Positions 261 to 52,184 of a stretch of DNA of 64,000 nucleotides are shown piece after piece (within the stretch, counting starts at the first letter, position 1; each line of letters opens with the position of its first letter). The stretch is from a bacterium. GTDB taxonomy: Bacteria; Electryoneota; Electryoneia; Electryoneales; Electryoneaceae. The notes under the pieces are model-generated. The model ran no database searches and had not been told where the DNA came from. It saw only the letters and a list, made by a program, of their open reading frames with translations. The DNA is taken from positions 1 to 64,000 of the forward strand of contig JAHLLH010000006.1 of the NCBI GenBank assembly GCA_020444265.1. Reading direction: 5' to 3'. The position numbers were made by a program, and so were the translations under genes.

Positions 261-3200
261 TTACTTCACGAGGACCATCTTACGCATCTTCGTGAAGCCC
301 GGGGTCTCCAGACGGTAGAAGTAGACACCACTGGCGAGTCTCGACGCATCGAAGCTCACATTGTGGTAGCCAGCCTGCATCTGACCATCGACCAACCGCG
401 CCACTTCCTGTCCAAGCATGTTGTAGACGGCCAGCTTGACATTCTGGGTTGCAACCAGGTCAAACTTGATCGCGGTGCTCGGGTTGAAGGGGTTCGGGTA
501 GTTCTGGTGCAGGGCATACTGCATCGGCAGCACATCTTCTTCAACACTGGTGTCGAGGAAGATCATGTCGACGGTCACTGCGGTATCCGCCATGTGCGGA
601 CCAGTGATCACGACCTGCGCAGTAACGTTTTGGCCATCGACCGGGTTGAAGCCCGGATCGGCAGCAAGATCAACCGTCACTGTGATGTTGGCCGATTCAC
701 CTGGCAGGAGGATGCCTGTGCCCGGATCGACATAGAGCCAGCTCTGGAGGGTCATGCCTTCGTAAATGTCGACCATGTCGGCAATGCCGGTACCCTGGCC
801 AAACAGCACGAAGTCAAGACCACCAGACCAGTCATGTGTACCGGTCATACCAACAACACCGTAGCTACCATCACCGTAAAGAGTGACGATCGGGGTGCTG
901 GTCCACGCCATCGTGGTCGGATTGTATCCGTAGATCCCAACCGGACCTGCTGTCGGGCTAGCGGAGAACGCACCGTAGATGGTGTTACCGTTCGGATCGT
1001 TCGGGACATACATCATCGCGTACGGGTAGCCACCCGGAGCAGGCTCACCAAGCGCGGTGTTCTGGGAGGTGCTAAGGTTCAGCATACCCCAGGCACTCTG
1101 CTCGTAAGCGTTCGCCCAGTAGACAATACCATTGTCATAATCATACGCGAGGCCCCACGCATCCTGACCAACAGTACCAATGTTGGTTGCGTTTGAACCA
1201 TCAGGCATGAACTGGTAGATGGCGCCGTTCGCAGCAGCCGTCATCACGAGGCCGGTTGTCGGATCGTACTCGATCTCGTTCCACCACTGAGTACCACCGG
1301 TGCTCGGGGTGTGAGTTTCGAGCAGGTTGCCCGAGAAATCGAACTCGTAGATGCTGTACGGAGCGTTGAACTGCATGATGTAGCCGCTGGTACCATCAAT
1401 CCAGGCACTCAGGTTATCCTGTGCACCGGAGATGGCATCGGCATCGAAGGTATCCAGCAGGTCCCAGGTCTCGTCGAGTTCGGAAACTGCGACGGGGCCA
1501 CGTTCCACTGCGGACTGCTTCGAGGTCTGGTAGTACGGCAGATCAGCAACTTCCGTAATGTCGCTCGGACGGACATTCTCCGGATAGGAACCGACGATTT
1601 CGTTGGCGCCGTTCAGGATGTTCACAGAAGCGGTGAACTCCATCGAGCCGCAACCATCGTTCGCAAGTTCAAAGCTCGAGCTGACCGGATCCGTGTCGTT
1701 GATGTTGATATCCATCGACAGGGTGGTCGGATCGACTGCCGGAACCGGCTTGACCATGACCATATCGCCCATGTCCATTTCGCCGTCCGCCGGGACATCC
1801 TGGTCCTCATAGGAGAGGGTCCAGAAGTTGTCGTGATGGAACTCGATGGTGTGCAAGCCAGCAAGCATTTCAACTGCAAAGCTGCCGTCTGCACTCGAGA
1901 CACCCATCATATGACCATCAGCCCAGATTTCCGCACCGATTACCGGCGGGCCATCATCGGCACAGTCATGCAGCACACCGGTAACCATACCGTATGCCGG
2001 CGGCACGACGCCGTAGAGCTCGAGGTCATCAAATGTGACACCCGTGTAGCTGTTCACGCTACCATCGGTACCATGGAACCAACGGAGCATAATGGTGCTG
2101 CCGTTGTAGGCACCCAGCGGGAACATCACGAGCTGCCATGTGTTCGCATCATCAGTAAAGCCAGGCTCACCGTTGGGCATACCAACGATGGAATCATCCG
2201 GATAACCGCCAACCGGATCAATCACTTCCCAGCTGGCACCTTCATCCGTGGAGATCCAGACGTTGTAACCATCCCAGCTGTTCTCATAATCGAGCCAGTG
2301 CCAGTACGCGGCAAGGGCGCCATCCGAGCTCACCTGGAAGGGAACGGTCATCTGTACGTAGTTGTTCTGGCTGTTGTCGTAGTTACCGGTCAGACCGGTC
2401 GACCAGGCATTGTCGCCTGTGTGCGCAGTACCCGGACCAGCGGTCGGCATACCGTGCGCCCAGACTCCGTCGCTCTCCATTTCGTTCCACTCACCATCTT
2501 CGAACGAGGTCGCAAGACCCGGATCGCCGACGAGAAGCAGGAGGGCTTCAGACATGCCGGATTCGTTCGGGACTTCGTCGTACGCAGTCACTGCGAACGC
2601 ATAGAAGCCTTCCGAATCCATCGTGGCCTGGTAGGAGGTCGTTTCGGTGGTACCCAACATAACCGGTTCCGCACCGCTGACCATGTAGACGTTGTAACCG
2701 GCCAGGTCGACCAGTTCACTACCGTCAGCATTGACATCCGGAGCCGTCCAGGTCAGGTCAACAACAAGACCATCGTTGGTCGCTGCAAGATCAGCCGGAG
2801 CAGCTGGCGCCATACCATAGGTGGCCAGTGTAACATCACTGTAGTTCGAGGTGATGTCATCTCCGCCTTCAGGATCGGTCACGACAGCGTTGGCACGGAA
2901 GGAATACTCTGTGCCTTCGTTTTCGGAACCAAGCGTCACGAAGTAGAAGTTGCCTTCGATCAGTTCGTCGTTCGCCTGGGTCCAATCGGTACCGTTGGCG
3001 GAATATTCGACGTTGAAGCCGACGAACTCATCAAGCTCGTTGTCCGTACCGAAGTAAGGATGCGGAGCTTCAAAGCTCGAGCCCTGCAGACCCCAAACCG
3101 GAAGCTGGGAGGAGAGGGTGATCGTCTGATCAACCTGCTTCTCAGCATTTACCGGCGTCGGTGTCAGCACTGCTGCCATCGGAGCGCCACCAGTCGGCGA

Positions 3201-6200
3201 GTAGAGGACCGACGCGCGAATCAGCGGATCGCCGCTCGTGCTGTTGGTCCAGGTATCACCACCATTGGTGCTGAGGTAAAGCGCTGAGTGATCGTTGGTA
3301 CCGTCAAGGCAGACCGGTTCCTGACCAGCTTCAGGCGTCACATTGTAGAAACCAATGTAGAATGTGGAAGTAACTGCAACACCCGGAGCGACTTCGACGG
3401 TCGGATCTTCCTCAGAAGGAGTCATCTCTGCGGAGGTCCAGACCAGCTCACCCGGGACGCCAGCATTGTCGTTGAAGACACCGATCACGACAGGCTGATG
3501 GGATTCATCCCCAGCAGGCCACCACTGATCGAAATCGTCAAAGACGAGGTAACGGATGTCGGATGCGGCAACAACGACATTCTCACCAGGTGCTGTAAAC
3601 TTCGCAGCAAACCAGTAATCAACCGTGTAACCGGGGTTCCAACCCGTTGCATCGTTAATGGTGCCATCATCAAGCTGCAGGTAGTCGGACTCGACCAGCG
3701 AGCCAGGCTCGGACAGCGTCAGGCTGACACCAACATCCGATGTACCGTCCGCGCTGATGATGTTCGGCGGAGTGGTCGGATCGATCGGGTTCAGGGCGAT
3801 GTCTTCCGAATGGACGTAACCGTCGCCTTCGACAAAGTCGACTGCGTCAAGTGCGCCATCTTCATAACCAGTCGCACGGAAGGTCAGATCCCACGGACCA
3901 TCTGTCTGGTCGACGAGACGAACTTCGTAGTGACCGTTCGCATCGGAAATACCGCTGTACTCAGCACCGGTAGCGCTGACGGCGTTCACGATCGCGCCTT
4001 CAACCGGCGAATCGGTCGTTGCATCGGTAACAATACCGTCGAGGGTACCGTAGTCGATCTGCAACGGGAAGAACATGATCCCATGGCCATCAACAATGCT
4101 GGCATGCGGGTAGGTCAAACCAACAGTACCTTCGGCATTTTCAACACCGATGGTCACACCTGTGTCACCAGACCAACCAGTGGCAGATGTATTGTAGTAC
4201 ATGTACGAGGTGCTGGTGGCCGGATCGAGAACAACCTGGTAGTCCTTCTCGTTGTTGGCCGGACCGGGGTAGTTACCCACGTGCCACTGGATGTAGACGA
4301 GTTCGTTTTCTTCGTCGAACCAGTACCATGCATCTTCCGTATCCGAGTCACCCGGATCCTGGTCGCGCCAGTACGGAGCGACTGTCGCGTTCGGAGTCGA
4401 GGTCGACGGAATGGTACCAGAAAGGCCACCATTGTCGTGGATGAAGCTGACCCAGCCGTTCGGGCTGACAGAGAATTCGCTGTAGCCAACACCGTAGTGA
4501 GTAAAGCTCCAACCATCCGGCATCGGAAGCAGCGGGGATTCGCCATCATCCGTCAGGTTCAAGGCAGTACCCGAACCATCTTCCGACGGGCGAATGTCCA
4601 ACCAGGTGTAATCCGTCTCTTCAACCGCATACAGACCGGAAGGAGTCGGATACGCCGGGGAGGCTTCAGACCACTCGAGATACATCTCGTTGTAGTCATA
4701 GTCCGCCGCAACCTGGACCTGGTACAGGGTACCGTTGTTCAGGCCGGTGACCATGTAGGGCGAGCCTTCTGCAACGTCTGCAAGAAGTTCACCATTCAGC
4801 ATGAAGCGATAGCCGACGAGGTCAGCAATATCATCCAGGCTGTTGTTCTGAATCGCATCCAGACGACGCTGGAGAACGACCAGCTCGTTGGTCATCTCGT
4901 TACGAACACGAACCGACTTGGCATCGGTGGCGTCTCCGAGACGCTCGAGGGTGTTCTGGCGGAATTCGATGCCACGAATAAGTGCTGGCGGCTCCGCGTG
5001 GTTCGCGGGAGGATCGAAATCAACACTGACACCACCATCCATCGACACGACCGTATTAATGGTCGGTGCGAGGATTTCAGGCATCATAAGTTCCACAGGA
5101 TCCATACCGGTCGCAACTTCAACCTGCATGGTCGCATCGTGGTAACCCATGGAGCCAACGGGGTTGTGGGTCATGTAGAAGTTGTAGGTGGAGGCCACAA
5201 CACCGGTGAAGCTGAAGTTACCGGAAGCATCGGTGATGGCAGTCTGACCCGCACCAACGATGGTCACAGCAACGCCGGCGACCGGGGTGTCAGGCGTATC
5301 CGCCGACATCACAGTACCGGTAAAGTCGACTTCATCTGTGCCCGGTTCGAGCGCGAAGTCGAAGGTGAATGCATCACCATATGCAACGATCTGCGGACCT
5401 GCGAAACCAGCATCAAAGCCTGGTGCCGTCACATTGATGTTGTACTCACCCGGGGCAACCGTCGTGCTGTAGAAACCAGCTGCGTCGGTCGCGAGGGTCG
5501 CAACGACTTCTTCAGTACCGTCAACCGACACAACAACTTCAGCACCTTCGATCGGCGCTTCCGTGCTTGCATTGGTGACCGTACCGGAGAACATCGGCAT
5601 CGCGCCTACGCTACGCAGCTCGACATCATCGATGTAAACACCGGGGTACTGACCGCTACCATCGGAACCAAAGACGAAGCGAATCATCGTCTCCATTCCG
5701 TCAAAGGCGCTAAGATCAAACGCCACGTAACGCCATTCAGAATTGTTACCAGAGAAACCACGGACATCATTCCCGATACCATCAACATCGGCATCGTTGT
5801 AAGCTCCGGGCAGGAACGGATCAATGATTTCCCACGTAGCGCCACCGTCTGTGGAAGCTTCTACGTTGTAACCATCCCAGCCGCTCTCCGTATACATCCA
5901 TTCCCAGTATGCGAACATTGAAGGCGCAATTGGGACAAAGGAATCGACGAGCGTCAGCGTGTCATCCGTGCTGGCAACGTAATCCTCGACGAGGTTCGTA
6001 CCGAAAAGGTTCGTGACCGAATGGGCTTCCGCCGGTCCGTCCACAAAGTCTGGGACGCCGTACTGCCACATCGGGGATTCCAGGTTGGTATTAACCACCC
6101 AGTTGTCGGAACCAGATTCGAAATCATCTCCAACGGTGACAGCTGGGAAGGCATCCATCGAGATGTCGATCGTGTTCGCACCAGCAACAACTTCGACAGC

Positions 6201-7217
6201 TTCAGCATTGTAGGTGAAGTAGCCCGTTGCTGCGGCGGAGACATCGTAGCTCGCCGAGAAGACGTCTGCGATGCTGTAGGTACCGTCAACACCACTTGTG
6301 GTGGTGTATGGGCCAACTGTGACCGTCGCACCCTCGATCGGGGCTTCGGTGCCAGCGTCGGTAACCGTACCAGAGATGGAGGCATCCGCTGCCAACAAGC
6401 TGAACTCAATCACGAGATCATCAAAATCTGCGGGAAGGAGGTCGCCATTGTTGTAGCACCAGGAGAGACCAACGCTACCGTCAGCATTTTCAATACCGAT
6501 GGTGGCGGAGTTCACGTCGAAGGTTTCACCGACGATATCGTACTGCAGAACAATACGACCATCATCATACATCAGGACCTGGGCTGTGACATAGTCTTCA
6601 GCACCAGACGCGCCGTACTCGGTGTAACCAATGAGCGAGATCACGAGGTAATCGTTGGAACCATCGTTCATCATCTCATAGTAAATCGAGGATTCGACGT
6701 CGGTGTCACCGAAGTTCATGTCATCCCACATCCAACCGATCAGGTTGTTGGGAGACGAGGCGTTCGGTATGTCCTGGTTGCTGAGGCTTGTGTTACCAGC
6801 AGAGAAGGTAATCATGCCATTACCAGCAACGTAGAATTCCGTGTTTGTCGCACCGTAGAACGGGAAGTCAAAACCGATAGCAAATGGACCGACTTCGCCG
6901 TCATCAGACGGACCCGGGTCAACCATCGTGCCGGTTCCCGTAATGTCGATCCAGCCATAGGTCGGACCATCGGGCTCGTTGCTGTCGGTATAAACATAAC
7001 CGAACGCATCCGGGCCGCCAGTTTGATCCAACTCGTTCGTACCGGGATTACGTGCATCCCACCAAGCCTGCTCCTGCTCAGTCATTTTCTGACCATTTTC
7101 CGCTTTCGTGATAACGCTTGATTCCCAAGCCTTATCGCCTTGCATAGCGAAACCAGTCGCCGACCAAGCGAAGAGGACCAGCACGACGAGACTAAAAAGC
7201 CATGCACTCTTACGCAT
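261..7217 (-). CDS. Giant multi-domain surface protein with type IX-like sorting domain (paralogue A)
   Basis: A 2,318-residue protein. I start it at the ATG at 7217 because a signal peptide (MRKSAWLFSLVVLVLFAW) begins there and AGGAG lies 7 bases upstream; an ATG at 7337 in the same frame lacks this. In order I see a nidogen-like beta domain, five carboxypeptidase-regulatory-like (GTVTDAGT-type) beta modules, two MAM-like jelly-roll domains, fibronectin-III-like modules, one of them with a charged helical insertion at about residues 740-800, and a propeller-like repeat region at about 1890-2140. The end is a C-terminal domain with NYPNPFNP near 2240 and a final KMRKMVLVK. Such ends direct FCB proteins through the type IX system. 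No catalytic motif is visible, so adhesion or matrix is a guess. It is a paralogue of the next gene. Confidence 0.9.
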   Translation of the reverse strand: MRKSAWLFSLVVLVLFAWSATGFAMQGDKAWESSVITKAENGQKMTEQEQAWWDARNPGTNELDQTGGPDAFGYVYTDSNEPDGPTYGWIDITGTGTMVDPGPSDDGEVGPFAIGFDFPFYGATNTEFYVAGNGMITFSAGNTSLSNQDIPNASSPNNLIGWMWDDMNFGDTDVESSIYYEMMNDGSNDYLVISLIGYTEYGASGAEDYVTAQVLMYDDGRIVLQYDIVGETFDVNSATIGIENADGSVGLSWCYNNGDLLPADFDDLVIEFSLLAADASISGTVTDAGTEAPIEGATVTVGPYTTTSGVDGTYSIADVFSASYDVSAAATGYFTYNAEAVEVVAGANTIDISMDAFPAVTVGDDFESGSDNWVVNTNLESPMWQYGVPDFVDGPAEAHSVTNLFGTNLVEDYVASTDDTLTLVDSFVPIAPSMFAYWEWMYTESGWDGYNVEASTDGGATWEIIDPFLPGAYNDADVDGIGNDVRGFSGNNSEWRYVAFDLSAFDGMETMIRFVFGSDGSGQYPGVYIDDVELRSVGAMPMFSGTVTNASTEAPIEGAEVVVSVDGTEEVVATLATDAAGFYSTTVAPGEYNINVTAPGFDAGFAGPQIVAYGDAFTFDFALEPGTDEVDFTGTVMSADTPDTPVAGVAVTIVGAGQTAITDASGNFSFTGVVASTYNFYMTHNPVGSMGYHDATMQVEVATGMDPVELMMPEILAPTINTVVSMDGGVSVDFDPPANHAEPPALIRGIEFRQNTLERLGDATDAKSVRVRNEMTNELVVLQRRLDAIQNNSLDDIADLVGYRFMLNGELLADVAEGSPYMVTGLNNGTLYQVQVAADYDYNEMYLEWSEASPAYPTPSGLYAVEETDYTWLDIRPSEDGSGTALNLTDDGESPLLPMPDGWSFTHYGVGYSEFSVSPNGWVSFIHDNGGLSGTIPSTSTPNATVAPYWRDQDPGDSDTEDAWYWFDEENELVYIQWHVGNYPGPANNEKDYQVVLDPATSTSYMYYNTSATGWSGDTGVTIGVENAEGTVGLTYPHASIVDGHGIMFFPLQIDYGTLDGIVTDATTDSPVEGAIVNAVSATGAEYSGISDANGHYEVRLVDQTDGPWDLTFRATGYEDGALDAVDFVEGDGYVHSEDIALNPIDPTTPPNIISADGTSDVGVSLTLSEPGSLVESDYLQLDDGTINDATGWNPGYTVDYWFAAKFTAPGENVVVAASDIRYLVFDDFDQWWPAGDESHQPVVIGVFNDNAGVPGELVWTSAEMTPSEEDPTVEVAPGVAVTSTFYIGFYNVTPEAGQEPVCLDGTNDHSALYLSTNGGDTWTNSTSGDPLIRASVLYSPTGGAPMAAVLTPTPVNAEKQVDQTITLSSQLPVWGLQGSSFEAPHPYFGTDNELDEFVGFNVEYSANGTDWTQANDELIEGNFYFVTLGSENEGTEYSFRANAVVTDPEGGDDITSNYSDVTLATYGMAPAAPADLAATNDGLVVDLTWTAPDVNADGSELVDLAGYNVYMVSGAEPVMLGTTETTSYQATMDSEGFYAFAVTAYDEVPNESGMSEALLLLVGDPGLATSFEDGEWNEMESDGVWAHGMPTAGPGTAHTGDNAWSTGLTGNYDNSQNNYVQMTVPFQVSSDGALAAYWHWLDYENSWDGYNVWISTDEGASWEVIDPVGGYPDDSIVGMPNGEPGFTDDANTWQLVMFPLGAYNGSTIMLRWFHGTDGSVNSYTGVTFDDLELYGVVPPAYGMVTGVLHDCADDGPPVIGAEIWADGHMMGVSSADGSFAVEMLAGLHTIEFHHDNFWTLSYEDQDVPADGEMDMGDMVMVKPVPAVDPTTLSMDININDTDPVSSSFELANDGCGSMEFTASVNILNGANEIVGSYPENVRPSDITEVADLPYYQTSKQSAVERGPVAVSELDETWDLLDTFDADAISGAQDNLSAWIDGTSGYIMQFNAPYSIYEFDFSGNLLETHTPSTGGTQWWNEIEYDPTTGLVMTAAANGAIYQFMPDGSNATNIGTVGQDAWGLAYDYDNGIVYWANAYEQSAWGMLNLSTSQNTALGEPAPGGYPYAMMYVPNDPNGNTIYGAFSASPTAGPVGIYGYNPTTMAWTSTPIVTLYGDGSYGVVGMTGTHDWSGGLDFVLFGQGTGIADMVDIYEGMTLQSWLYVDPGTGILLPGESANITVTVDLAADPGFNPVDGQNVTAQVVITGPHMADTAVTVDMIFLDTSVEEDVLPMQYALHQNYPNPFNPSTAIKFDLVATQNVKLAVYNMLGQEVARLVDGQMQAGYHNVSFDASRLASGVYFYRLETPGFTKMRKMVLVK

Positions 7218-7947
7218 GTTGTTACTCCTGTTAGCAATACCTGTACCTGTGCTCCTATGGCGGTTCATGACGTTTACTTCCGACCCCTTGTCAATTCCCC
7301 GCCCAAAATTGTTTTTACTTGCAGACGTTCCCTTCAAGCACCTCCTGGGTTTGCCCCACTGTTTCCGTTGTTGCCTGTATGAAAAACCTCCTCCAACTCG
7401 GAAAGGGCGTTACTGACCGATCAATCGGCAGCGTACGCCCATGCGAGGGTGTTTACTAAATCGAGCATACTCCATGGCCAAACTTGTCATCCAAAGAAGG
7501 CCAGTGTTGGGGATAGCGGCCCACGGCATTTTCCCCGTTGCCCACGTCAACCGTCAGAGAGTTCAATTGGAATCCGCGAACCTGTTTTAGACAGAGTCCG
7601 GACCAGACTGGAGAGAAACAGTGCAGGTAAGCAAATCAGGTATGCAGTTCAAGCAAGCAGTGCAGGTAAGCAGTACGTAAGTAGCAGTTCAGTGTTGCAG
7701 ATCAAGTCAGCAAAATGCCAGTCATGGCTCAAGTAGGTTCAAAATAGGAGGGGGTTAATTTATGAGTCAAGCAAGTCAAGCAGAATTCTAATTTTCACCA
7801 CGCAATTCTAATGATACGTGCTCTCTGTGGAGACGCATAAGAATCAAGCTTTTTATCACTTTTTTCACTTCTCCCTACCCCTGCTTTTTAAGCGCATTTA
7901 GCTCTGTTTTGAGCAACCTTAAACCAAGAGACAGGGTCTAAAAGAGA
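7218..7947. other. Intergenic region with short degenerate direct repeats
   Basis: About 730 bases between the two giant genes, presumably holding the promoter of the first (minus strand). It contains two exact copies of a 15-mer beginning CAGTGCAGGTAAGC (7619-7633 and 7658-7672) in a stretch rich in AAGCA and CAGTTCA words up to about 7790, then AT-rich sequence. No convincing gene is seen. I could not define a promoter. Confidence 0.6.
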
Positions 7948-8003: not shown

Positions 8004-11000
8004 TTACTTCACGAGGACCATTTTACGCATCTTCGTGAAGGCAGGAGTCTGCAGACGGTAGAAGTAGACACCACTGGCGAGTCTCGACGCATCGAAGCTC
8101 ACGTTGTGGTAGCCAGCCTGCATCCGACCATCAACCAACCGCGCCACTTCCTGTCCAAGCATATTGAAGACGGTCAGCTTGACATTCTGGCTTGCCACCA
8201 GGTCAAACTTGATCGCGGTGCTCGGGTTGAAGGGGTTCGGGTAGTTCTGGTGCAGGGCATACTTCGCCGGCAGCAGATCATCGTTCTCGCCCGCAGTGGT
8301 GAAGACCATGTCAACGGTGACAATGGTATCAACCATCTTCGGACCAGAAATAATGACCTGTGCTGTGACATTCTGACCGTCGACCGGCTGGAAGCTCGGA
8401 TCGGCAGCGTGATCAACCGTCACCGTGATGTTTGCAGTTTCACCCGGCAGCAATGTACCGAGGGAAGGATCGACCGACAGCCAGCTCTGCAGCGTGCTGC
8501 CTTCGTAGATGTCGACCATGTCAGCAATACCGTCACCCTGGCCAAACAGGACGAAGTCGAGGTTGCCGGACCAGTCATGTGTACCGGTCATACCAACAAC
8601 ACCGTAGCTACCATCACCATAAAGGGTAGCAATCGGGGTGCTCGTCCAGGCCTGAGTCGTCGGGTTGTATCCGTAGATCCCAACCGGGCCAGCCGTCGGT
8701 GAATCCGAGAATGCACCGTAAATGGTGTTCCCATTCGGATCCGTCGGGACGTACATCATCGCGTATGGGTAGCCACCCGGAGCAGGCTCACCAAGCGCGG
8801 TGTTCTGGGAGGTGCTAAGGTTCAGCATACCCCAGGCACTCTGCTCGTAAGCGTTCGCCCAGTAGACAATACCATTGTCATAGTCATACGCAAGGCCCCA
8901 CGCATCCTGACCAACAGTACCGATGTTGGTTGCGTTTGAACCATCAGGCATGAACTGGTAAATGGCGCCGTTCGCAGCAGCCGTCATCACAAGGCCGGTT
9001 GTCGGATCGTACTCGATCTCGTTCCACCACTGGGCACCACCGGTGCTCGGGGTGTGAGTCTCAAGCAGGTTGCCCGAGAAATCGAACTCGTAGATGTTGT
9101 ACGGAGCGTTGAACTGCATGATGTAGCCGCTTGTACCATCAATCCAGGCACTCAGGTTATCCTGTGCACCGGAGATGACATCGGCATCGAAGCTGTCCAG
9201 CAGGTCCCAGGTCTCGTCGAGTTCGGAAACTGCGACGGGGCCACGGTCCACTGCGGACTGCTTCGAGGTCTGGAAGTACGGAAGATCAGCAACTTCCGTG
9301 ATGTCGCTCGGACGGACATTCTCCGGATAAGAACCGACGATTTCGTTAGCTGCGTTCAAAATGTTGACCGACACGGAGTAGTCCATCACTCCACAGCCAA
9401 CGTTTTCAAGCACGACAACGTCACTCACCGGATCTGTATCACCCAGAGGGATGGTCATGGCGAGGGTTGTGGCATCAACGTCGGCTTCCGGTTTGGTCAT
9501 GACCATGTCGCCCATGTCCAATTCACCATCGGCCGGGACATTCTGATCCTCGTAGACAAGGTCCCAGAAGTTGTCGTGATGGAACTCGATGATGTGGCTA
9601 CCGGCAATCACTTCAACTGCAAAGCTGCCGTCCGTAGCCGAAACACCCATCGCACGGCCATCGACCCAGATATCGGCACCGATCACTGGAGCGCCATCAT
9701 CTTCACAATCATGCAGAACACCAGTGACTGTGCCGTACTCAGGCGGCTGTACGCCGTAGAACGACATGTCATCAAGCGCTGCACCGTAATTAGCCACGGA
9801 GAGCCAGTCAGACGCATGGTAGAAGCGAACGTAGATTGCTTCACCTTCATACGCGCCGAGTGGGATGATCACTTGCTGCCATTCGTTGCCCTGACCGGTA
9901 AATCCGGGCTCAACGACATTCTCGCCACCAAGGCCGCGAACATCTTCAACCGGATAGCCACCAGCCGGTTCCACGATTTCCCAGGTCGTACCGTCAACAG
10001 ACACCTTGACGTTGTAGCCATCCCAGGTATTTTCGTAGTCGAGCCAGTGCCAGTAGGTCAACATCGAGCCTGCATGCTCGACCACCAGTGGTGCGGTGGT
10101 TTCGAGGTTGGCATGCTCATCGACATCACCGTGATCACCACCGAGGACAGTTGCCCAGACGTTATCGCCCGTGTGCGCTGCCTCCGGACCTGCTGTTGGA
10201 GCACCATGCTCCCAGACCATATCGGCGACCAGTTCATTCCATTCACCAGTTTCGAAACTGGTTTCAATGGAGGGATCGCCCGCGAGAACGATGATACCAG
10301 CAGAGACGGCAGAAACGTTCGGGACCTCATCTTCCGCCGTCACCACGAAACCGTAGAACCCAGCGGCTTCCATCGTCGTGGAGAAAGTGGTCGTTTCAGA
10401 GGTACCGACCAGTTCAGTTTCCTCCCCAAGCAGCCAGACACTGTACTGCTCGAGGTCCACCAGCTCGGAACCATCAGCATTGACCGTCGGAGCAGTCCAG
10501 CTCAGGCTGATTTCAAGACCATCGGCTTCGCCTTCAAGCGCGGTCGGTGTGCCTGGAGCCATGTTGAAGGTCGCTGTGGTCACATCGCTGTAGTCGGACG
10601 TAATGTTGTCGCCGCCTTCAGGATCGGTCACAACTGCGTTTGCACGGATCGAATACTCCGTGTCCTCATTTTCAGAGCCCATCTCGAGGAAATACATCGG
10701 TCCCGAAATGAGTTCCTCATTCGCGACGGTCCAATCGGTACCGTTCAGCGAATACTCAACGTTGAAACCAACGAACTCGTCCAACTCGCCTGCGTACGGC
10801 AGGAAGTGCGGGTTGGCCGGTGCGGCGGTACGCTTCATCAGACCATGAACCGGGACACTGTAGGACAACTCAGTGTTTGCCTGCTCTGTCTTGACATTAT
10901 CCTCACCTGGAGAGACGCTGGCCACGACCGGAGTAGTACCACCGACCGGGACATACATCACCGACGCGCGGATGAAAGGATCACCGCTGGTCGACAGGTT

Positions 11001-14000
11001 CCAGGTAGAACCGCCGTCCACGCTTGTGTAGAGAACATCGTTGTCGTTGCTGCCATCCAGCGAGAGTGGTTCCTGACCAGCTTCCGGGGTAACATTGTAG
11101 AAACCGATGAAGAAGGTGCTGGAAACACTGATGTTCGGCATGACTTCGAGAGTCGGATCTTCCTCGGACGGGGTCATCTCGTCGGAGGTCCAAACCAACT
11201 CACCCGGCATGCCGCTGCCATCATCGTTGAAGACACCGATCACGACGGGCTGATGGCTTTCGTCACCTTCCGGCCACCACTGATCGAAGTCGCTGAAGAT
11301 GAGGAAACGAATATCAGACGCCTGGAGCTGGACCCCTTCGCCTGGGACATCAAACTTCGCGGCGAACCAGTAATCGGAGGTATAGCCCGGGTTCCAACCT
11401 GTTGCATCACCAACGATACCATCGTCGTGCTGCAGGTAATCCAACTCGACCAACGCACCCGGCTCGCCAAGGACGACCTGGATACCATTGTCGTAGTTGC
11501 CATCAGCCGAAAGGATGCTTGGAGGGGTGCTCGGGTCGATGGCAGTCATGACCACGTCTTCGACATGGACATATTCTTCACCTTCGTCCCAATCGACATC
11601 TTCCACCGTCACATCGAGATAACCAGCTGCGCGGAATTCGAGGGTGTAGGGAGCATCAAGCTGATCCGCTTCCAGAACCTCGTAGAAACCATCTTCATCC
11701 GAAACAGCCGTGTACTCGGCACCTGAATCGCCCATTGCAGTGACAACCGCGCCATCAACAGGATTGCCGGAGTCTGCATCGGTGATGGTACCCTCAATGT
11801 TGCCGTACTCAGCTTCGGAGAGGTAGATCCGGACTGCCGCACCATCCGCAGCCGTCTCGATCGGGAGCACGAGTGCTTCCGTACCGTCAGTATTCTCAAT
11901 ACCGATTGAGTTGATGGTGTTGGCGTTCCAGCCGTTTGAAGCAACGTTGTACTGGAAGGTCATGGAGTTATCATCACCATCCAGAATCAACTCGTGCAGA
12001 TAGGTGTCGGTTTCATCACCGTAGTATTTCACGTTGTAGAGAACGATGTAGCGGTTGTTCTCTTCATCGTGGTAACCCCAGATCGCGAGGCCATCATCTG
12101 CAGCTTCAACATCCGTGTCTTCGTTGAAATGAGCGATCAATGCATTCGGTTCAGTCGTTGATGGCAGTGTCAGGCCGATCGAACCACTGGTACCGTTTGT
12201 GAAGCTGACCCAGCCATTTGAGCAGGCCGCGATTTCATCGTAGGTCGTTCCGTAGAACGTGAACGAGAAACCATCCATGCTCAAAAGGCCGCTGTTGGCA
12301 TCATCACCCTCATCCAGCAGCATCGTACCGCTGCCGCCTTCGGACGGACGAATGTCAACCCATTCGTAGTCGGTGTCTTCCACCAGGTAGGGAGGTGTGC
12401 TGTTCGGACGTGCTACCACAGGATCAGAGAAGCTGAGGGATTCAGTGTTGTAGTCGTAGTCCGCAGCAATCTGGAAGGAATACTGATGACCGTTCGTCAG
12501 GTCACCGACGACGACCTCGGTATCATCCACCAGGTCAGGCATCACTTCGCCGTCCACCATAACCAGGTAACCAGCGAAATCACTGATTTCGTCAAGACCA
12601 TTTTCGCTGCCCATCTCGACGATCTCAAGACGACGCTCAAGGATGGCGAGTTCAGAGCGAACGACATTGATCTTCGCGAGGGTGGCGGGATCAAGGTTGC
12701 TGCCAAGGCGACGAAGCATGTCGCGACGTGTCTCGATGCCATTACGAAGTGTCGGCGCATCATCATGGTTTGCCGGCGGATCCCAGGTAACAGTTACCTG
12801 GCCGTCACCCGTGCTGGCCATGACATTCTGCGGAGCAAGAATTTCCGGCATGTAGAGGGTCAACGGCAGGTTGTCACCGTCAATCACGACACCGGTCAGG
12901 GTCACATCATGATAACCCATCGACCCAATCGGGTTGTGGGTGATGTAAACCGTGTAGGTACCAGCAGGGATGTCCGGGCTGAGGCTGAAGGAACCGTCTG
13001 CACCGGTAAATCCAGTTGCGCCGGAACCGACAACATTAACTACTGCACCAACAACCGGAGTTTCTTCCGTATCCGCAGACATCACGGTACCGGCGACGGT
13101 CACGATTTCTTCCTGGGCTTCCAGGCTGAAGTCGACCGTGGTCTCCTGGTCGAGGACAATCTCGACGTCGTTGGTGATCGCGTCAACAAAACCAAACGCA
13201 CCACCCTGGACATCGTAGGTGCCCGGAGCGACGTCGATCATGTAGGAACCATCTTCACCCGTCGTGCCTGTGGCAACAATCGTCGCCGGCTCTTCCTGGG
13301 TCAGGACGGTTACCGTCGCTTCGCTGATGGGGGTAGTACCATCTGCTTCGTAAACATGGCCAGCCAGGGTACCACCAGGCATGCTGACAGTCCAGGAAGT
13401 CATGTTCTCAGGGAAACCGAAGTCGCTACCCTGGTAGAGGGTATACCCAACGGTACCATCTCCACTCTCGAAACCAACTGTGTGGCTGCGAGTGTAGGGA
13501 TCCTCCTCGTCCATGTACCCTGCGACGTTCTCGAGGTTGAAGTTGACAGCACCCGTGTTGAAGTCGAGCACGATCTGGGTCGTCGGGCCGGAATCATCGG
13601 GGCTGTTATAGAAGATCACATCATCCCAGGAGATGACCAGCTTGCCATCTACAACTTCGAAGAAAACATGACCGCTGACATCTTCGGCGGGGTCCAGGTC
13701 GGCTGCCAACGGAGCGAGCACGCCATTCGGGGTGCTGGTGTTGGGCATCACGCCGGTGAAGATCGTTCCCGTACCCAATTCCTCACCAAAGGCGGCCCAG
13801 CCGTTCGAGTAAACTTCAATCTGGCTGTACGTTTCACCGTACCAGGTGAAGTCACCCAGACCCAGGTCCGCAAACACGAGCGGGTCATGGTCGTCATCGC
13901 CGAATTCGAAGTCAGTCGCTGACTCGGAAACTTCGATCCATTCGAACGACTCGAGTTGCTCGAGAGTGTAGTTCAAAGTCGCATCGTAAACCGCGTAGCC

Positions 14001-15008
14001 GAACCAATCGAGCTCATCCGCGGGATCACGCGCTTCATTCCCAACACCATCGATCGTGGAAACGGAATAGACAACAGTATCTGTGGTCGAAACGAATGTA
14101 GCCGGGATCAACGCGCTGAACTCATTGTCATTACCCGTTGCTGTCATTTCGATATCGGTCAGCTCTGTGATGCTGCCGTTCGCATAGTGCCCGTAGCTCA
14201 GGGTCACAGAGGCGATGGAGACATCATCAGTCGCAATCGCGACAACTTCTTCATCCGCACCTTCATAGCCAACGATCGGACCGGAGGTCAATTCAATCTC
14301 CGGACCTTCCAGGTCGAGCGGTCCATCGTTACCAATCACAGTAACGTTGTCCAGCGCCCAGAAGTAGGGCCATGAATCGCCATCGTCGTAGACAAAACGA
14401 AGCATGAACTCATCGTTGGCAACGAAATCGGTTAGTTCAAGCGTGTAGGGATAGGCTTCGACATCAGTATCCCAGGTTTCCGCGACCAGCCAGGTGGTAC
14501 CACCATCGAGGCTGTATTCAATGTTTGCCGAGTCGGCGGAAACAAAGTTGTAGTAGGTATCGAATTGCAGGAAGACGTAGTCATACCCGGTCGCATCCAT
14601 CGTGGGTCCGGTCAGGATCTCACGGAGGTGGACCCCCGAACCAGCAAAATCGGAGTCGACCCACATATAGGGTGCGTCTTCACCATCTTCGAAGTAAGAA
14701 TGGTAATCGTTGTCATCCGGGCCACCGGTGTTGTCCGCCGTGCTGTACCAGGTATGACCATCATCATCGCCATCAGTGATGGTCCAGCCGGTAAGATCGT
14801 CGAAACCGGTTGAATAGATAACATCTTCGTCAAGTTCATCGAGGGACCAGTGCTGCATCCGCTCGGACGACATCACTTTAAAGTGCTGCCGTGCGTTCGC
14901 GATTTCTTCTGCCTTCGCCTGCTCAGGTGTCAGCGGTGCTGCTACTGACACACCACACCAGATAAAGGCAAGCAGAAACAACGCGATAATTGCTGTGTTT
15001 TTCCGCAT
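8004..15008 (-). CDS. Giant multi-domain surface protein with type IX-like sorting domain (paralogue B)
   Basis: A 2,334-residue protein. The start is the ATG at 15008: AGGGAG stands 7 bases upstream and a signal peptide (MRKNTAIIALFLLAFIWCG) follows. The layout parallels paralogue A: MAM-like/jelly-roll N-terminus, nidogen-like beta domains, carboxypeptidase-regulatory-like modules, fibronectin-III with a helical insertion at about residues 750-815, propeller-like region and a C-terminal sorting domain (NYPNPFNP near 2256, ending KMRKMVLVK). From about residue 1885 to the end it is almost identical to paralogue A; the N-terminal parts are clearly diverged and differently arranged, with an extra domain rich in DDG-type acidic turns. 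A surface adhesin or matrix protein is an inference; no enzyme motif is visible. Confidence 0.9.
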   Translation of the reverse strand: MRKNTAIIALFLLAFIWCGVSVAAPLTPEQAKAEEIANARQHFKVMSSERMQHWSLDELDEDVIYSTGFDDLTGWTITDGDDDGHTWYSTADNTGGPDDNDYHSYFEDGEDAPYMWVDSDFAGSGVHLREILTGPTMDATGYDYVFLQFDTYYNFVSADSANIEYSLDGGTTWLVAETWDTDVEAYPYTLELTDFVANDEFMLRFVYDDGDSWPYFWALDNVTVIGNDGPLDLEGPEIELTSGPIVGYEGADEEVVAIATDDVSIASVTLSYGHYANGSITELTDIEMTATGNDNEFSALIPATFVSTTDTVVYSVSTIDGVGNEARDPADELDWFGYAVYDATLNYTLEQLESFEWIEVSESATDFEFGDDDHDPLVFADLGLGDFTWYGETYSQIEVYSNGWAAFGEELGTGTIFTGVMPNTSTPNGVLAPLAADLDPAEDVSGHVFFEVVDGKLVISWDDVIFYNSPDDSGPTTQIVLDFNTGAVNFNLENVAGYMDEEDPYTRSHTVGFESGDGTVGYTLYQGSDFGFPENMTSWTVSMPGGTLAGHVYEADGTTPISEATVTVLTQEEPATIVATGTTGEDGSYMIDVAPGTYDVQGGAFGFVDAITNDVEIVLDQETTVDFSLEAQEEIVTVAGTVMSADTEETPVVGAVVNVVGSGATGFTGADGSFSLSPDIPAGTYTVYITHNPIGSMGYHDVTLTGVVIDGDNLPLTLYMPEILAPQNVMASTGDGQVTVTWDPPANHDDAPTLRNGIETRRDMLRRLGSNLDPATLAKINVVRSELAILERRLEIVEMGSENGLDEISDFAGYLVMVDGEVMPDLVDDTEVVVGDLTNGHQYSFQIAADYDYNTESLSFSDPVVARPNSTPPYLVEDTDYEWVDIRPSEGGSGTMLLDEGDDANSGLLSMDGFSFTFYGTTYDEIAACSNGWVSFTNGTSGSIGLTLPSTTEPNALIAHFNEDTDVEAADDGLAIWGYHDEENNRYIVLYNVKYYGDETDTYLHELILDGDDNSMTFQYNVASNGWNANTINSIGIENTDGTEALVLPIETAADGAAVRIYLSEAEYGNIEGTITDADSGNPVDGAVVTAMGDSGAEYTAVSDEDGFYEVLEADQLDAPYTLEFRAAGYLDVTVEDVDWDEGEEYVHVEDVVMTAIDPSTPPSILSADGNYDNGIQVVLGEPGALVELDYLQHDDGIVGDATGWNPGYTSDYWFAAKFDVPGEGVQLQASDIRFLIFSDFDQWWPEGDESHQPVVIGVFNDDGSGMPGELVWTSDEMTPSEEDPTLEVMPNISVSSTFFIGFYNVTPEAGQEPLSLDGSNDNDVLYTSVDGGSTWNLSTSGDPFIRASVMYVPVGGTTPVVASVSPGEDNVKTEQANTELSYSVPVHGLMKRTAAPANPHFLPYAGELDEFVGFNVEYSLNGTDWTVANEELISGPMYFLEMGSENEDTEYSIRANAVVTDPEGGDNITSDYSDVTTATFNMAPGTPTALEGEADGLEISLSWTAPTVNADGSELVDLEQYSVWLLGEETELVGTSETTTFSTTMEAAGFYGFVVTAEDEVPNVSAVSAGIIVLAGDPSIETSFETGEWNELVADMVWEHGAPTAGPEAAHTGDNVWATVLGGDHGDVDEHANLETTAPLVVEHAGSMLTYWHWLDYENTWDGYNVKVSVDGTTWEIVEPAGGYPVEDVRGLGGENVVEPGFTGQGNEWQQVIIPLGAYEGEAIYVRFYHASDWLSVANYGAALDDMSFYGVQPPEYGTVTGVLHDCEDDGAPVIGADIWVDGRAMGVSATDGSFAVEVIAGSHIIEFHHDNFWDLVYEDQNVPADGELDMGDMVMTKPEADVDATTLAMTIPLGDTDPVSDVVVLENVGCGVMDYSVSVNILNAANEIVGSYPENVRPSDITEVADLPYFQTSKQSAVDRGPVAVSELDETWDLLDSFDADVISGAQDNLSAWIDGTSGYIMQFNAPYNIYEFDFSGNLLETHTPSTGGAQWWNEIEYDPTTGLVMTAAANGAIYQFMPDGSNATNIGTVGQDAWGLAYDYDNGIVYWANAYEQSAWGMLNLSTSQNTALGEPAPGGYPYAMMYVPTDPNGNTIYGAFSDSPTAGPVGIYGYNPTTQAWTSTPIATLYGDGSYGVVGMTGTHDWSGNLDFVLFGQGDGIADMVDIYEGSTLQSWLSVDPSLGTLLPGETANITVTVDHAADPSFQPVDGQNVTAQVIISGPKMVDTIVTVDMVFTTAGENDDLLPAKYALHQNYPNPFNPSTAIKFDLVASQNVKLTVFNMLGQEVARLVDGRMQAGYHNVSFDASRLASGVYFYRLQTPAFTKMRKMVLVK

Positions 15009-15711
15009 GCATAAACTCCCTGTTGCGTGTAGCGAATCAAGTGTAAACCGTTCTTCATGACGAATCCCGTAAAGCAACCAGTGTCAAGGATTCGCCTTGT
15101 CCCATCATGCGATTTTTGTGATCCCCTCCTTTTGCTTGGTTACCACTGCATAGTCATGCCGGACCAGAGTGGTCCGGTTATAATCCTCCTCCTGCGCTGT
15201 CGACATGACAGAGCACAAGAATGGACCTAAGCGTCCTGCAATGGAATAGAGATCTGCGGGGTGCACCGGATGGACAAACAGGGGGTTGGTGCGCTTCTCA
15301 TCCCAAAGAAACCGTGCAAGTGCGCAAGAGATCCGGGGGGGGATATAATCCCCTCAAGTAAACCGTATCGTTGTCATCCCAGATGGAGGCTAAGCTCCAA
15401 GCGATTCTTCAAAATATCAGAGGCCTGCGGGGGAGTCAAGCAGGAGCGGCCCAGTCAGCCATAAAATCCCTAAACAGGCATGGAGAGTCAAAAAAACTGT
15501 TACCGCCTCAACCCCAATTTTAACCATTGACGTAAACGTCCAAACTCCCCCACATCAGCTTTGATAGCACCCTATCATTAATGGATGATAGATTGTGGTC
15601 TTGATGCATTTTCACCCATGCGGTTTTATCAGAGCCAAGGGAGGCTCTGCCTCCACCAGGGGGGTATCGTTCACATTGGGTGAGTCAAACATTTTATTGC
15701 GGTGTAACAGA
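15009..15711. other. Intergenic region with three small palindromes
   Basis: About 700 bases upstream of paralogue B. I see three hairpins: CCGGACCA-GAG-TGGTCCGG (15159-15177), CTATCAT-TAATGG-ATGATAG (15572-15591) and GGAGGC-TCT-GCCTCC (15640-15654). The last has the 3-base loop typical of the dispersed palindromes elsewhere in the window. No supported gene is present. The promoter of paralogue B should lie here, but I cannot place it. Confidence 0.5.
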
Positions 15712-28349: not shown

Positions 28350-28612
28350 CTGGCCCGGGTAATCTTGCTTGCCCGGGTTTCATCACGTTCTCACCCCTGT
28401 CAGGTCTCCGCTTCGCTAAGGACCTGACGGAACCTCTAAACCTCTATGAGGTCGATGGGCTACGCCCATCCTCGCCGGACTCAAGATTCCTGCCTACATC
28501 TGATCCGACCGTGTGGCCCGACTTTCTCGCAAGTCGGGTTTATTCATCAGTCAACCCAATCTTCACACCTCTTCGCGCCTGTGGCGCGATACACGGGCAA
28601 GATGCCCGTGCT
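28350..28612. repeat. Cluster of six palindromes between atpB and atpE
   Basis: In order: CCCGGGTAA/TTGCCCGGG (28354-28377) followed by TTTCATC; GTCAGGTC/GACCTGAC around a 14-base loop (about 28396-28430) followed by GGAAC; GATGGGC-TAC-GCCCATC (28454-28470); CCCGACTT/AAGTCGGG (28517-28538) followed by TTTATTC; TCGCGCC-TGT-GGCGCGA (28573-28589); CACGGGCA-AGA-TGCCCGTG (28592-28610). Members of these families recur elsewhere in the window. No gene lies in this 384-base gap. Confidence 0.85.
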
Positions 28613-28615
28613 ACA

Positions 28616-32403: not shown

Positions 32404-32886
32404 GCCTATCCAGTGTAGGCCGGATTCTTGAATCCGGCGATGTTCCGGCACCGCCGGAACGTTCCATCTGAAGAGGTGTCAGGCGCCAACGGCGCCTACT
32501 CAGAGTGCCGGATTCAAGAATCCGGCCTACATCCCACCACCGACCTCGCAAGCTACAGCTTGTCAAAGCGCTTGTGAAAATATTAGGAATTCCTAACCAT
32601 CAAAATCGAGCCCCGAAACCTCGAGGGCTCCTCCTTGCTCTCTTTGTGAAAGATGGCGCTAATCGTTGTGATTAATGCCGTTCGCATGCTTGATCCTGTC
32701 AGGGTTCATTTTTCTGCACCGAGGGTGCGAGGGAACGCGTATCCCCCTCAACGATTCAACCTTTTCACACCATTCCGTTCCTCTCCGACAACACCGTCCT
32801 CGACACCAGGAATAGTCAGACCCTGCCCTTGAAGCATGCGGAGTAATCGTAACGTACGGATGATCTACTGCGCTGAAGCACGATGC
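32404..32886. other. Intergenic region with an inverted palindrome pair and no ORF
   Basis: Four stems come first: GCCGGATTC-TT-GAATCCGGC (32419-32438), GTTCCGGC-ACC-GCCGGAAC (32442-32460), AGGCGCC-AAC-GGCGCCT (32481-32497) and a second, inverted GCCGGATTC/GAATCCGGC (32507-32526). The rest, about 32530-32886, has no convincing gene on either strand but ends in a plus-strand terminator, so it may be transcribed as RNA. Confidence 0.6.
32419..32526. repeat. Inverted pair of GCCGGATTC palindromes (REPIN-like)
   Basis: The outer palindromes are inverted copies: GTAGGCCGGATTCTTGAATC on the plus strand at 32416 and again on the minus strand from 32530. They enclose two other 3-base-loop hairpins. 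Two inverted REP copies with a spacer form the layout of REPIN elements mobilised by RAYT transposases. Confidence 0.7.
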
Positions 32887-35721: not shown

Positions 35722-35736
35722 CTGAGGTTCGGGGTG

Positions 35737-35760
35737 GCCCGGGCACTCCGTTGCCCGGGC
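35737..35760. repeat. GCCCGGGCA palindrome
   Basis: GCCCGGGCA (35737-35745) pairs with TGCCCGGGC (35752-35760). The TGG before and CTT after follow the frame of the palindromes at 28354, 28517, 45850 and 51716. It lies 16 bases beyond the metallo-hydrolase stop and could act as a terminator-like hairpin. Confidence 0.6.
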
Positions 35761-45812: not shown

Positions 45813-45936
45813 GCATGGCAAGCTTCGCTTACCATGCCACCCAGGCTGGCCCGACACTTCAGTGTCGGGTTTCATCGGAAGTCTTGAGCCGAGAAAGCAT
45901 CCACAGTCCGAAGAGACCCGACACTAAAGTGTCGGG
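45813..45936. repeat. Hairpin and inverted pair of CCCGACACT palindromes (REPIN-like)
   Basis: A hairpin GCATGG-C-AAGC-TTC-GCTT-A-CCATGC (45813-45837) is followed by CCCGACACT-TC-AGTGTCGGG (45850-45869) and an inverted copy CCCGACACT-AA-AGTGTCGGG (45917-45936). The two copies share flanks (TGGCCCG before; CGGGTTTC or CGGGTCTC after, each read on its own strand) and enclose 47 bases. They lie between the convergent ends of glnE and the next gene. Confidence 0.85.
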
Positions 45937-45945
45937 CCACATTCA

Positions 45946-51688: not shown

Positions 51689-52184
51689 TTTTGTAACGGT
51701 TCAATCAATCTGGTAGCCCGATTCAGTTGTGAATCGGGCTTATTCATGTATAGATCGATCGTTGAATCTGGGTCACACAGGTGGCACGGGCAAGACAAGC
51801 ATGGGCACCCTCTCAAGTGGCTTGGGTGCCCCGTCACCCAAGCGAAGCATCTCAGCACTGCAACGTGTCCGTCAGGTCTCCGCGTTGCTAAAGACCGGAC
51901 GGAACAACGATTGTAGCACGGGCATCCTGCCCGTGCATCGCGTCGCCAGACGCGACCGGGAGAGACTTCTGGGGCCAGGTAACCAGGTCCAACCTCTTTG
52001 CGGGGAACGCCATCTGCGAAGGCGTAGCATGGGCAGGATGCCCATGCCACACGCTCGCAACGACATCAACCCAGAAAGGCCGAGGTTCGCGCACCTTCCA
52101 CACGTCTGGTAGCTGGATCCCTGGTCAACTCGCCAAAGGCGAGTAAAGCCTGGGATGACACGATGGCACAAACTCGGAAGTTGG
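51689..52184. repeat. Repeat-filled gap: palindrome cluster
   Basis: Elements in order: GCCCGATTCA-GTTG-TGAATCGGGC (51716-51739) followed by TTATTC; the 31-bp repeat copy 2 (51814-51844, inverted); a GTCAGGTCTCC-type palindrome (about 51869-51903); a two-hairpin element GCACGGGCA/TGCCCGTGC (51916-51936) plus TCGCGTC/GACGCGA (51938-51955); and GCATGGGCA-GGA-TGCCCATGC (52027-52047). No gene is seen between the binding-protein gene and the acyl-CoA dehydrogenase gene. Confidence 0.8.

Follow-up and report, generated by a model that had tools for sequence, protein, structure and literature searches.

A GTAG-footed two-hairpin repeat of an Electryoneota genome as a probable REP element with a matching RAYT clade in other phyla

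GTAG-tagged palindromes constitute a superfamily of repetitive extragenic palindromes (REPs; PMC3733652) characterized by a GTAG or GTGG foot, a perfect stem of 6–13 bp and a loop of 2–4 bases, by many copies that fall into subfamilies through complementary changes, by sites between co-directional and convergent genes, and by the presence of several families per genome and of RAYTs flanked by REPs. Complementary changes kept in REP palindromes were already seen by Nunvar et al. in 2010 (PMC2817692), and Di Nocera et al. (2013) reported some species with GTAG REPs without a cognate RAYT (PMC3733652). In vitro, group 3 TnpA-REP enzymes cut single-stranded REPs built of GTAG, a perfect stem of 8 bp and a loop of 3 nt; cutting suffers from changes in GTAG, depends decisively on one loop base, and is affected or nearly eliminated by a stem mismatch (PMC8266576). 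The repeat described here shares the superfamily features listed above and differs in its regular second GC-rich hairpin and mosaic neighbours. The group 3 REPtrons, of which Stenotrophomonas Sm is an example (PMC8266576, PMC2817692), likewise have a GTAG foot, a loop of three bases and a perfect palindrome of 8 bp, and inverted REPs on both sides of a RAYT that carries the HUH motif and the tyrosine; their loop is GCT instead of the TCY seen here, and the RAYT clade discussed below (the L050 clade) has a longer N-terminal part (...LPHW...YAVTFRLAD...) and belongs to a lineage that spans phyla. GTAG-20 of Opitutus terrae, one of 24 published families and mostly GTGG-footed, may be related.

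Three copies of the element lie in the window, the 64,000-nucleotide stretch of DNA that was analysed (Table 1). The first-pass annotation had described their sequences correctly, with coordinates off by one or two bases (GTAG lies at 28614 rather than 28612, copy 2 at 51913-51955, and copy 3 at 52027-52050). Copies 1 and 2 have the form GTAG CACGGGCA TCY TGCCCGTG Y A TCGCGYC n(3-4) GRCGCGA and as single-stranded DNA fold into two hairpins each, of which hairpin 1 is a 9-bp GC-rich stem closed by the three-base loop TCY, within the literature description of a REP as a short GC-rich palindrome with a loop of 2–4 bases. Copy 3, read in the TCC-loop orientation, is GTGGCATGGGCATCCTGCCCATGC followed by a second hairpin, TACGCC...GGCGT, unrelated to that of copies 1 and 2. 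Single-stranded DNA folding yields z scores of -6.3, -6.6 and -5.0 for copies 1, 2 and 3, each better than all 200 shuffles. Copy 1 starts two bases beyond the stop codon of an ATP synthase A-chain gene, while copies 2 and 3 share the space between genes for a periplasmic binding protein and an acyl-CoA dehydrogenase, where they form an inverted pair whose feet are the outer ends, 138 bp apart (51913 and 52050). This arrangement, a single pair within the window, resembles the REPINs of Bertels and Rainey (2011, PMC3116915).

Table 1. Positions of the repeat copies and other REP-type palindromes in the window, and loci in other genomes at which RAYT relatives lie in frame within host genes.
Feature	Position	Strand	Remark
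Copy 1	28571..28614	minus	foot GTAG at 28614-28611
Copy 1 hairpin 1	28611-28591	minus	GCACGGGCA-TCT-TGCCCGTGT
Copy 1 hairpin 2	28589-28573	minus	TCGCGCC-ACA-GGCGCGA
Copy 2	51913..51955	plus	foot GTAG; convergent genes on either side
Copy 2 hairpin 1	51916-51936	plus	GCACGGGCA-TCC-TGCCCGTGC
Copy 2 hairpin 2	51938-51955	plus	TCGCGTC-GCCA-GACGCGA
Copy 3	52007..52050	minus	second subfamily; foot GTGG
Copy 3 hairpin 1	52047-52027	minus	GCATGGGCA-TCC-TGCCCATGC
L164-type REP	51817..51843	plus	GTGGCTTGGGTG-CCCCGT-CACCCAAGC; same palindrome flanks L164
L032-type REP	32415..32438	plus	GTAGGCCGGATTCTTGAATCCGGC; family flanking L032
L032-type REP, second copy	32507..32530	minus	GTAGGCCGGATTCTTGAATCCGGC; opposite orientation
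L033-type REP	45917..45940	minus	GTGGCCCGACACTTTAGTGTCGGG; family flanking L033; further palindrome copy at 45850-45869
GTRG-footed hairpin	51713..51739	plus	GTAGCCCGATTCAGTTGTGAATCGGGC; structure scan
GTRG-footed hairpin	28513..28538	plus	GTGGCCCGACTTTCTCGCAAGTCGGG; structure scan
GTRG-footed hairpin	35734..35760	plus	GTGGCCCGGGCACTCCGTTGCCCGGGC; structure scan
L232-type module	28399..28433		GTCAGGTCTCCGC...GACCTGACGGAAC; same palindrome flanks L232
L232-type module, second window copy	51871..51905		7 bases upstream of copy 2
valS-insert loci	1903-5910 (L215, G046)		L215, L216, L217, L218, L219, L235, L237, L238, L240-L243, L246
Other in-frame host: valS, different site			L236; named by eye
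Other in-frame host: DinG-type helicase			L245, L247-L252; most named by eye from sequence
Other in-frame host: etfB-like gene			L244; named by eye from sequence
Other in-frame host: DUF1156-type methylase			L239
Other in-frame host: Eco57I-type methylase			L256, L258, L261
Other in-frame host: hsdR			L220
Other in-frame host: end of TetR-like gene			L221; named by eye from sequence

The home genome (4.33 Mb in 19 contigs, assembly 94% complete) contains 30 exact matches to the 14-base core GTAGCANGGGCATC, compared with 0 for the reversed control. With up to three mismatches allowed, the 24-base hairpin has 82 matches on both strands (reversed control, 0), which reduce to about 45 distinct copies, since a palindrome is matched on either strand; the copies are dispersed over many contigs, as REPs are, and are fewer than the more than 100 given as usual for REP-rich genomes (PMC2817692). 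A working list of 47 copies was compiled with up to four mismatches over the genome stretches examined. The home copies carry the GTAG/GTRG tetranucleotide at one end of the palindrome, although the mismatches allowed in the search left the foot free to vary. Copy 3 and two further copies (L026 and L025) form a GTGG subfamily, united by the foot, by a C-G to T-A change and by similar second hairpins. Overall, the unit consists of a GTRG tetranucleotide, a perfect 8-9 bp hairpin with a TCY loop, and a second GC-rich hairpin that varies with subfamily and neighbour. In 19 of 47 copies the GTAG foot is immediately preceded by the end of an L232-type palindrome, CCTGACGG, and in 23 of 47 another palindrome apparently starts downstream, giving a mosaic of abutting palindromes like the BIMEs of the literature.

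Two arrangements of longer repeats were also observed in this genome. Four REP copies stand head-to-tail with a unit of about 296 bp at G000:C4:223056-223967 (L206, L008), most of them adjoined by a GGCCCCGGATCAAGTCCGGGGTGACACCG palindrome. In the window itself, two very large adjacent minus-strand genes of 2358 and 2357 codons (261-7337 and 8004-15077) form a repeat with a spacing of about 7.74 kb and 71-94% identity in blocks, and the first of them (261-7337) bears a Por-type secretion C-terminal domain.

Forty-five of the 47 copies are intergenic, although 84% of contig C4 is coding. Under crude gene calling with a simple codon-based caller trained on contig C4, 33 copies lie between co-directional genes, 12 between convergent genes, none between divergent genes, and 2 overlap a predicted gene; for the overlapping copies, L030 and L177, in-frame insertion was considered and the idea dropped, their frames being unconvincing. 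Hairpins rich in GC that follow genes, in some cases with a convergent gene beyond, might be intrinsic transcription terminators whose common sequence arose by chance or spread. This reading was rejected for want of T-runs, which follow hairpin 1 in 0 of 47 copies and hairpin 2 in one and are absent on the opposite strand; the long identical sequence found across phyla also counts against it, and its probability is considered negligible. The position of most copies on the 3' sides of genes likewise fits a structured or cis-regulatory RNA kept for transcript folding (mRNA stability or attenuation), as do the several changes that amount to G-U wobbles and the frequent transcription of REPs (PMC3733652). 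Orientation relative to neighbouring genes is, however, nearly free (20 same, 13 opposite), Rfam and tRNA searches of the window returned no match, the same 24-mer occurs over many phyla beside RAYTs, and the unpaired foot and the loop stay constant at RAYT-flanking copies whose stems differ. A function in RNA is accordingly regarded as very unlikely.

The paired differences between the window copies had been taken in the first-pass annotation as evidence for selection on structure rather than drift, a claim that is partly supported: it fails for hairpin 1 within the home genome, but hairpin 2 covaries there and hairpin 1 covaries strongly in other genomes. The difference between TCGCGCC/GGCGCGA and TCGCGTC/GACGCGA in hairpin 2 is truly paired. 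The C-G to T-A change of the third copy is also real and paired; copy 3 nevertheless belongs to a different subfamily, having a GTGG foot and an unrelated second hairpin, and its change is common to only two other copies of the same subfamily and therefore represents one event. Counted genome-wide, hairpin 1 has 3 compensated cells against 14 broken and 14 one-sided wobble cells, all 3 compensated cells being one change type confined to the second subfamily; the home search is slightly biased against compensated changes because the mismatch limit charges each of them twice. In a selected set of 17 home copies none of the pairing measures for hairpin 1 exceeds the shuffles. Hairpin 2 of the home copies has 9 compensated, 13 wobble and 15 broken cells, or 7 compensated and 11 broken among distinct variants, and its pairing of 237.5 exceeds the 226.5 ± 1.9 obtained by exchanging right arms at random between copies (0 of 2000). 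Part of the hairpin 2 variants are wholesale replacements, such as CGCCATC...GATGGCG in L002, rather than stepwise changes.

Across other genomes, 196 elements were collected by GTRG, a left arm within two mismatches and TCY, with the right arm ignored; a control with scrambled foot and loop gave 4 hits. Left-arm changes in hairpin 1 are compensated in 117 cells, wobble in 13 and broken in 14, and 55 more cells are broken by a change of the right arm alone. The 82 distinct sequences have double changes at 7 of 8 pairs, and 89.5% of their cells are paired, where shuffles give 78.1 ± 0.7 and slid structures no more than 47%. These sequences are related and their cells are not independent, so that the safer count is 10 compensated kinds at 7 of 8 arm positions. 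Taken over the whole family the hairpin keeps its structure, and copy differences within the home genome are mostly recent spread followed by unpaired decay. Stem subfamilies with complementary changes occur between genomes, and one such hairpin 1 change is found inside the home genome.

The home genome encodes five Y1-type transposases (RAYTs; L031, L032, L033, L164 and L232), and hairpins with GTRG and a perfect stem of at least 8 pairs number 25 against 0-3 in shuffles over 270 kb of contig C4, in several families that include GTAGGCCGGATTCTTGAATCCGGC, GTGGCTTGGGTGCCCCGTCACCCAAGC and GTGGCCCGACACTTTAGTGTCGGG. These three sequences flank resident RAYTs, namely L032, L164 and, with an altered foot, L033. 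L232 (1200-1900, G000:C11:414468) has the palindrome CCGTCAGGTC...GACCTGACGG on both sides, without a GTRG foot and often abutting a GTAG element. Palindromes of four of the five resident RAYTs (L032, L033, L164 and L232) have copies in the window. The pairing of RAYT and palindrome known from Proteobacteria thus holds here for other families. The remaining RAYT, L031 (1370-2145, G000:C10), has long flanking inverted repeats, TTATTAGTGACAGTTACTAATT...AATTAGTAACTGTCAC, and no GTAG, and resembles the TIR-type transposases (TIRYT) of Di Nocera et al.

Among species-representative genomes, 71 stretches contain the exact 24-mer, under the labels Phycisphaerales, Verrucomicrobia, Latescibacterota, Fimbriimonadales, Lentisphaerae, Terriglobia, Chloroflexi, Zixiibacteriota, Deltaproteobacteria, one Calothrix and others; many carriers are metagenome bins, so that single taxon labels may be wrong. 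The 14-base core is absent from all 40 relatives of the home genome examined. At a Latescibacterota locus (L050/L135) a 212-residue RAYT has two inverted copies of the REP (GTAGCACGGGC palindromes) on either side. Nine genomes carry the L050 RAYT or RAYTs 48-57% identical to it, with a Y1_Tnp domain, an invariant HVH motif and a tyrosine before NP that is conserved in complete sequences. About half of this clade (~50% identity) is associated with the same palindrome or stem variants of it: L136-L139 are flanked by either, with stem length and loop unchanged in the variants GCACGGGCG/CGCCCGTGC, GCACGGCCA/TGGCCGTGC and GCTTGAGCA/TGCTCAAGC, while the palindromes flanking L140-L143 are altered, with few or none recognisable near the gene. 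The GTRG foot is present at RAYT-flanking copies in other genomes as well, and loci of other Y1 transposases from the same genomes (L105-L134) have almost no such palindromes.

Searches of the home assembly with the Pfam family, the L050 protein and a nine-sequence profile did not find a RAYT of the matching clade; they gave five partial matches, each with another palindrome. The best of these, and the home RAYT closest to the cognate clade, is L032 (E 1.2e-16 over the C-terminal half), whose own REP is likewise GTAG-footed. A resident RAYT, L032 or L232, rather than a lost cognate one, could have amplified the repeats on a foreign stem, and the L232-type palindromes directly upstream of the foot could have allowed the two to travel together. 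The REP of L032 has, however, a different stem and a two-base TT loop, and RAYTs and REPs are described as co-evolved pairs in which, for group 3, the loop bases are critical (PMC8266576); amplification by a resident enzyme is therefore considered doubtful.

The element has every sequence feature of a GTAG-REP except a cognate RAYT in the same genome, and it is therefore placed as a further member of this known class. The second hairpin and the neighbouring palindromes lie outside the minimal REP of the literature and count against the assignment, as do the missing RAYT of the matching clade in the home assembly and the altered or unrecognisable palindromes at L140-L143. On balance the element is, with high confidence, a GTAG-tagged REP, that is, a non-autonomous mobile DNA palindrome, likely spread by a RAYT that is lost, unassembled or resident. 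In the mechanism proposed, the hairpin would fold when DNA becomes single-stranded in replication, transcription or repair, and an HUH single-tyrosine transposase (TnpA-REP, RAYT) would recognise the GTAG foot, stem and loop, cut beside the hairpin, and move or copy the REP, chiefly to intergenic sites on the 3' sides of genes. With recognition directed at shape, foot and loop, the stem sequence would be free to change provided that pairing is kept; the constancy of GTRG, stem length and TCY loop beside paired variation in the stem is the trace that would be expected of such recognition. As the assembly has no member of the cognate clade, a RAYT now lost or unassembled would most likely have spread the home copies, the alternative being a resident one acting in trans. 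Structure, copy number, location, the flanked RAYTs of other genomes and covariation between genomes are direct observations; movement by an L050-clade RAYT and horizontal arrival are inferred. The home RAYTs each have their own palindrome and none belongs to the L050 clade; the home copies therefore have the appearance of orphan passengers in a REP/RAYT lineage that spreads horizontally.

A separate observation concerns the location of such RAYTs in other genomes. An L050-clade RAYT lies in frame within valyl-tRNA synthetase in 13 Phycisphaerae-type genomes (G045, G046, G057, G062, G071 and eight more of a class survey), after the N-terminal part of ValRS and before TVATTRPET of the editing domain, with translated palindromes (HGQDARAT, GVPPV) at the edges of the insert. 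In nine cases measured the ValRS landmarks are 248-341 residues apart, and in L237 the contig or frame stops before the second landmark. Pfam detects both ValRS halves around Y1_Tnp in L215. The insert-bearing frame is the one valS frame over the cut-off in each of the 12 insert genomes examined, three of which have the ValRS C-terminal part on another contig or frame. The RAYT parts are 51-72% identical between hosts and the adjoining ValRS parts 66-85%; these values are compatible with a single old insertion as well as with several. Other relatives of the RAYT lie in frame in other host genes (Table 1).

Rickettsia palindromic elements are translated in frame within genes, as is the HGQDARAT palindrome in other genomes here; in contrast to those elements and to REPINs, whole RAYT genes rather than palindromes alone are in frame outside the home genome. 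REPs inside genes are already known (PMC3733652). The open-access literature searched yielded no paper on the peptide HGQDARA or on a transposase inside valyl-tRNA synthetase, which is weak evidence, and a limited literature yielded no description of whole RAYTs in frame within genes. With somewhat better than even confidence, these observations are read as one phylum-crossing REP/RAYT lineage whose autonomous form can live in frame in host genes, the home genome holding passenger palindromes only. Under this lineage reading, a RAYT with translated REP remnants would be read through as an insert of ~250-340 residues in what is apparently the only ValRS.

An apparent RNA structure is thereby reinterpreted as a family of mobile DNA for which a transposase clade has been identified. 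Paired stem changes among the repeats of one genome can represent a single subfamily difference and should be counted as events. An identical palindrome of 24 bases connects distant phyla in this family, so that horizontal REP spread becomes testable. If confirmed, the in-frame RAYT in ValRS would be an unusual mobile gene tolerated within an essential enzyme, and the lineage reading, if true, would describe a way to persist in essential genes without splicing.
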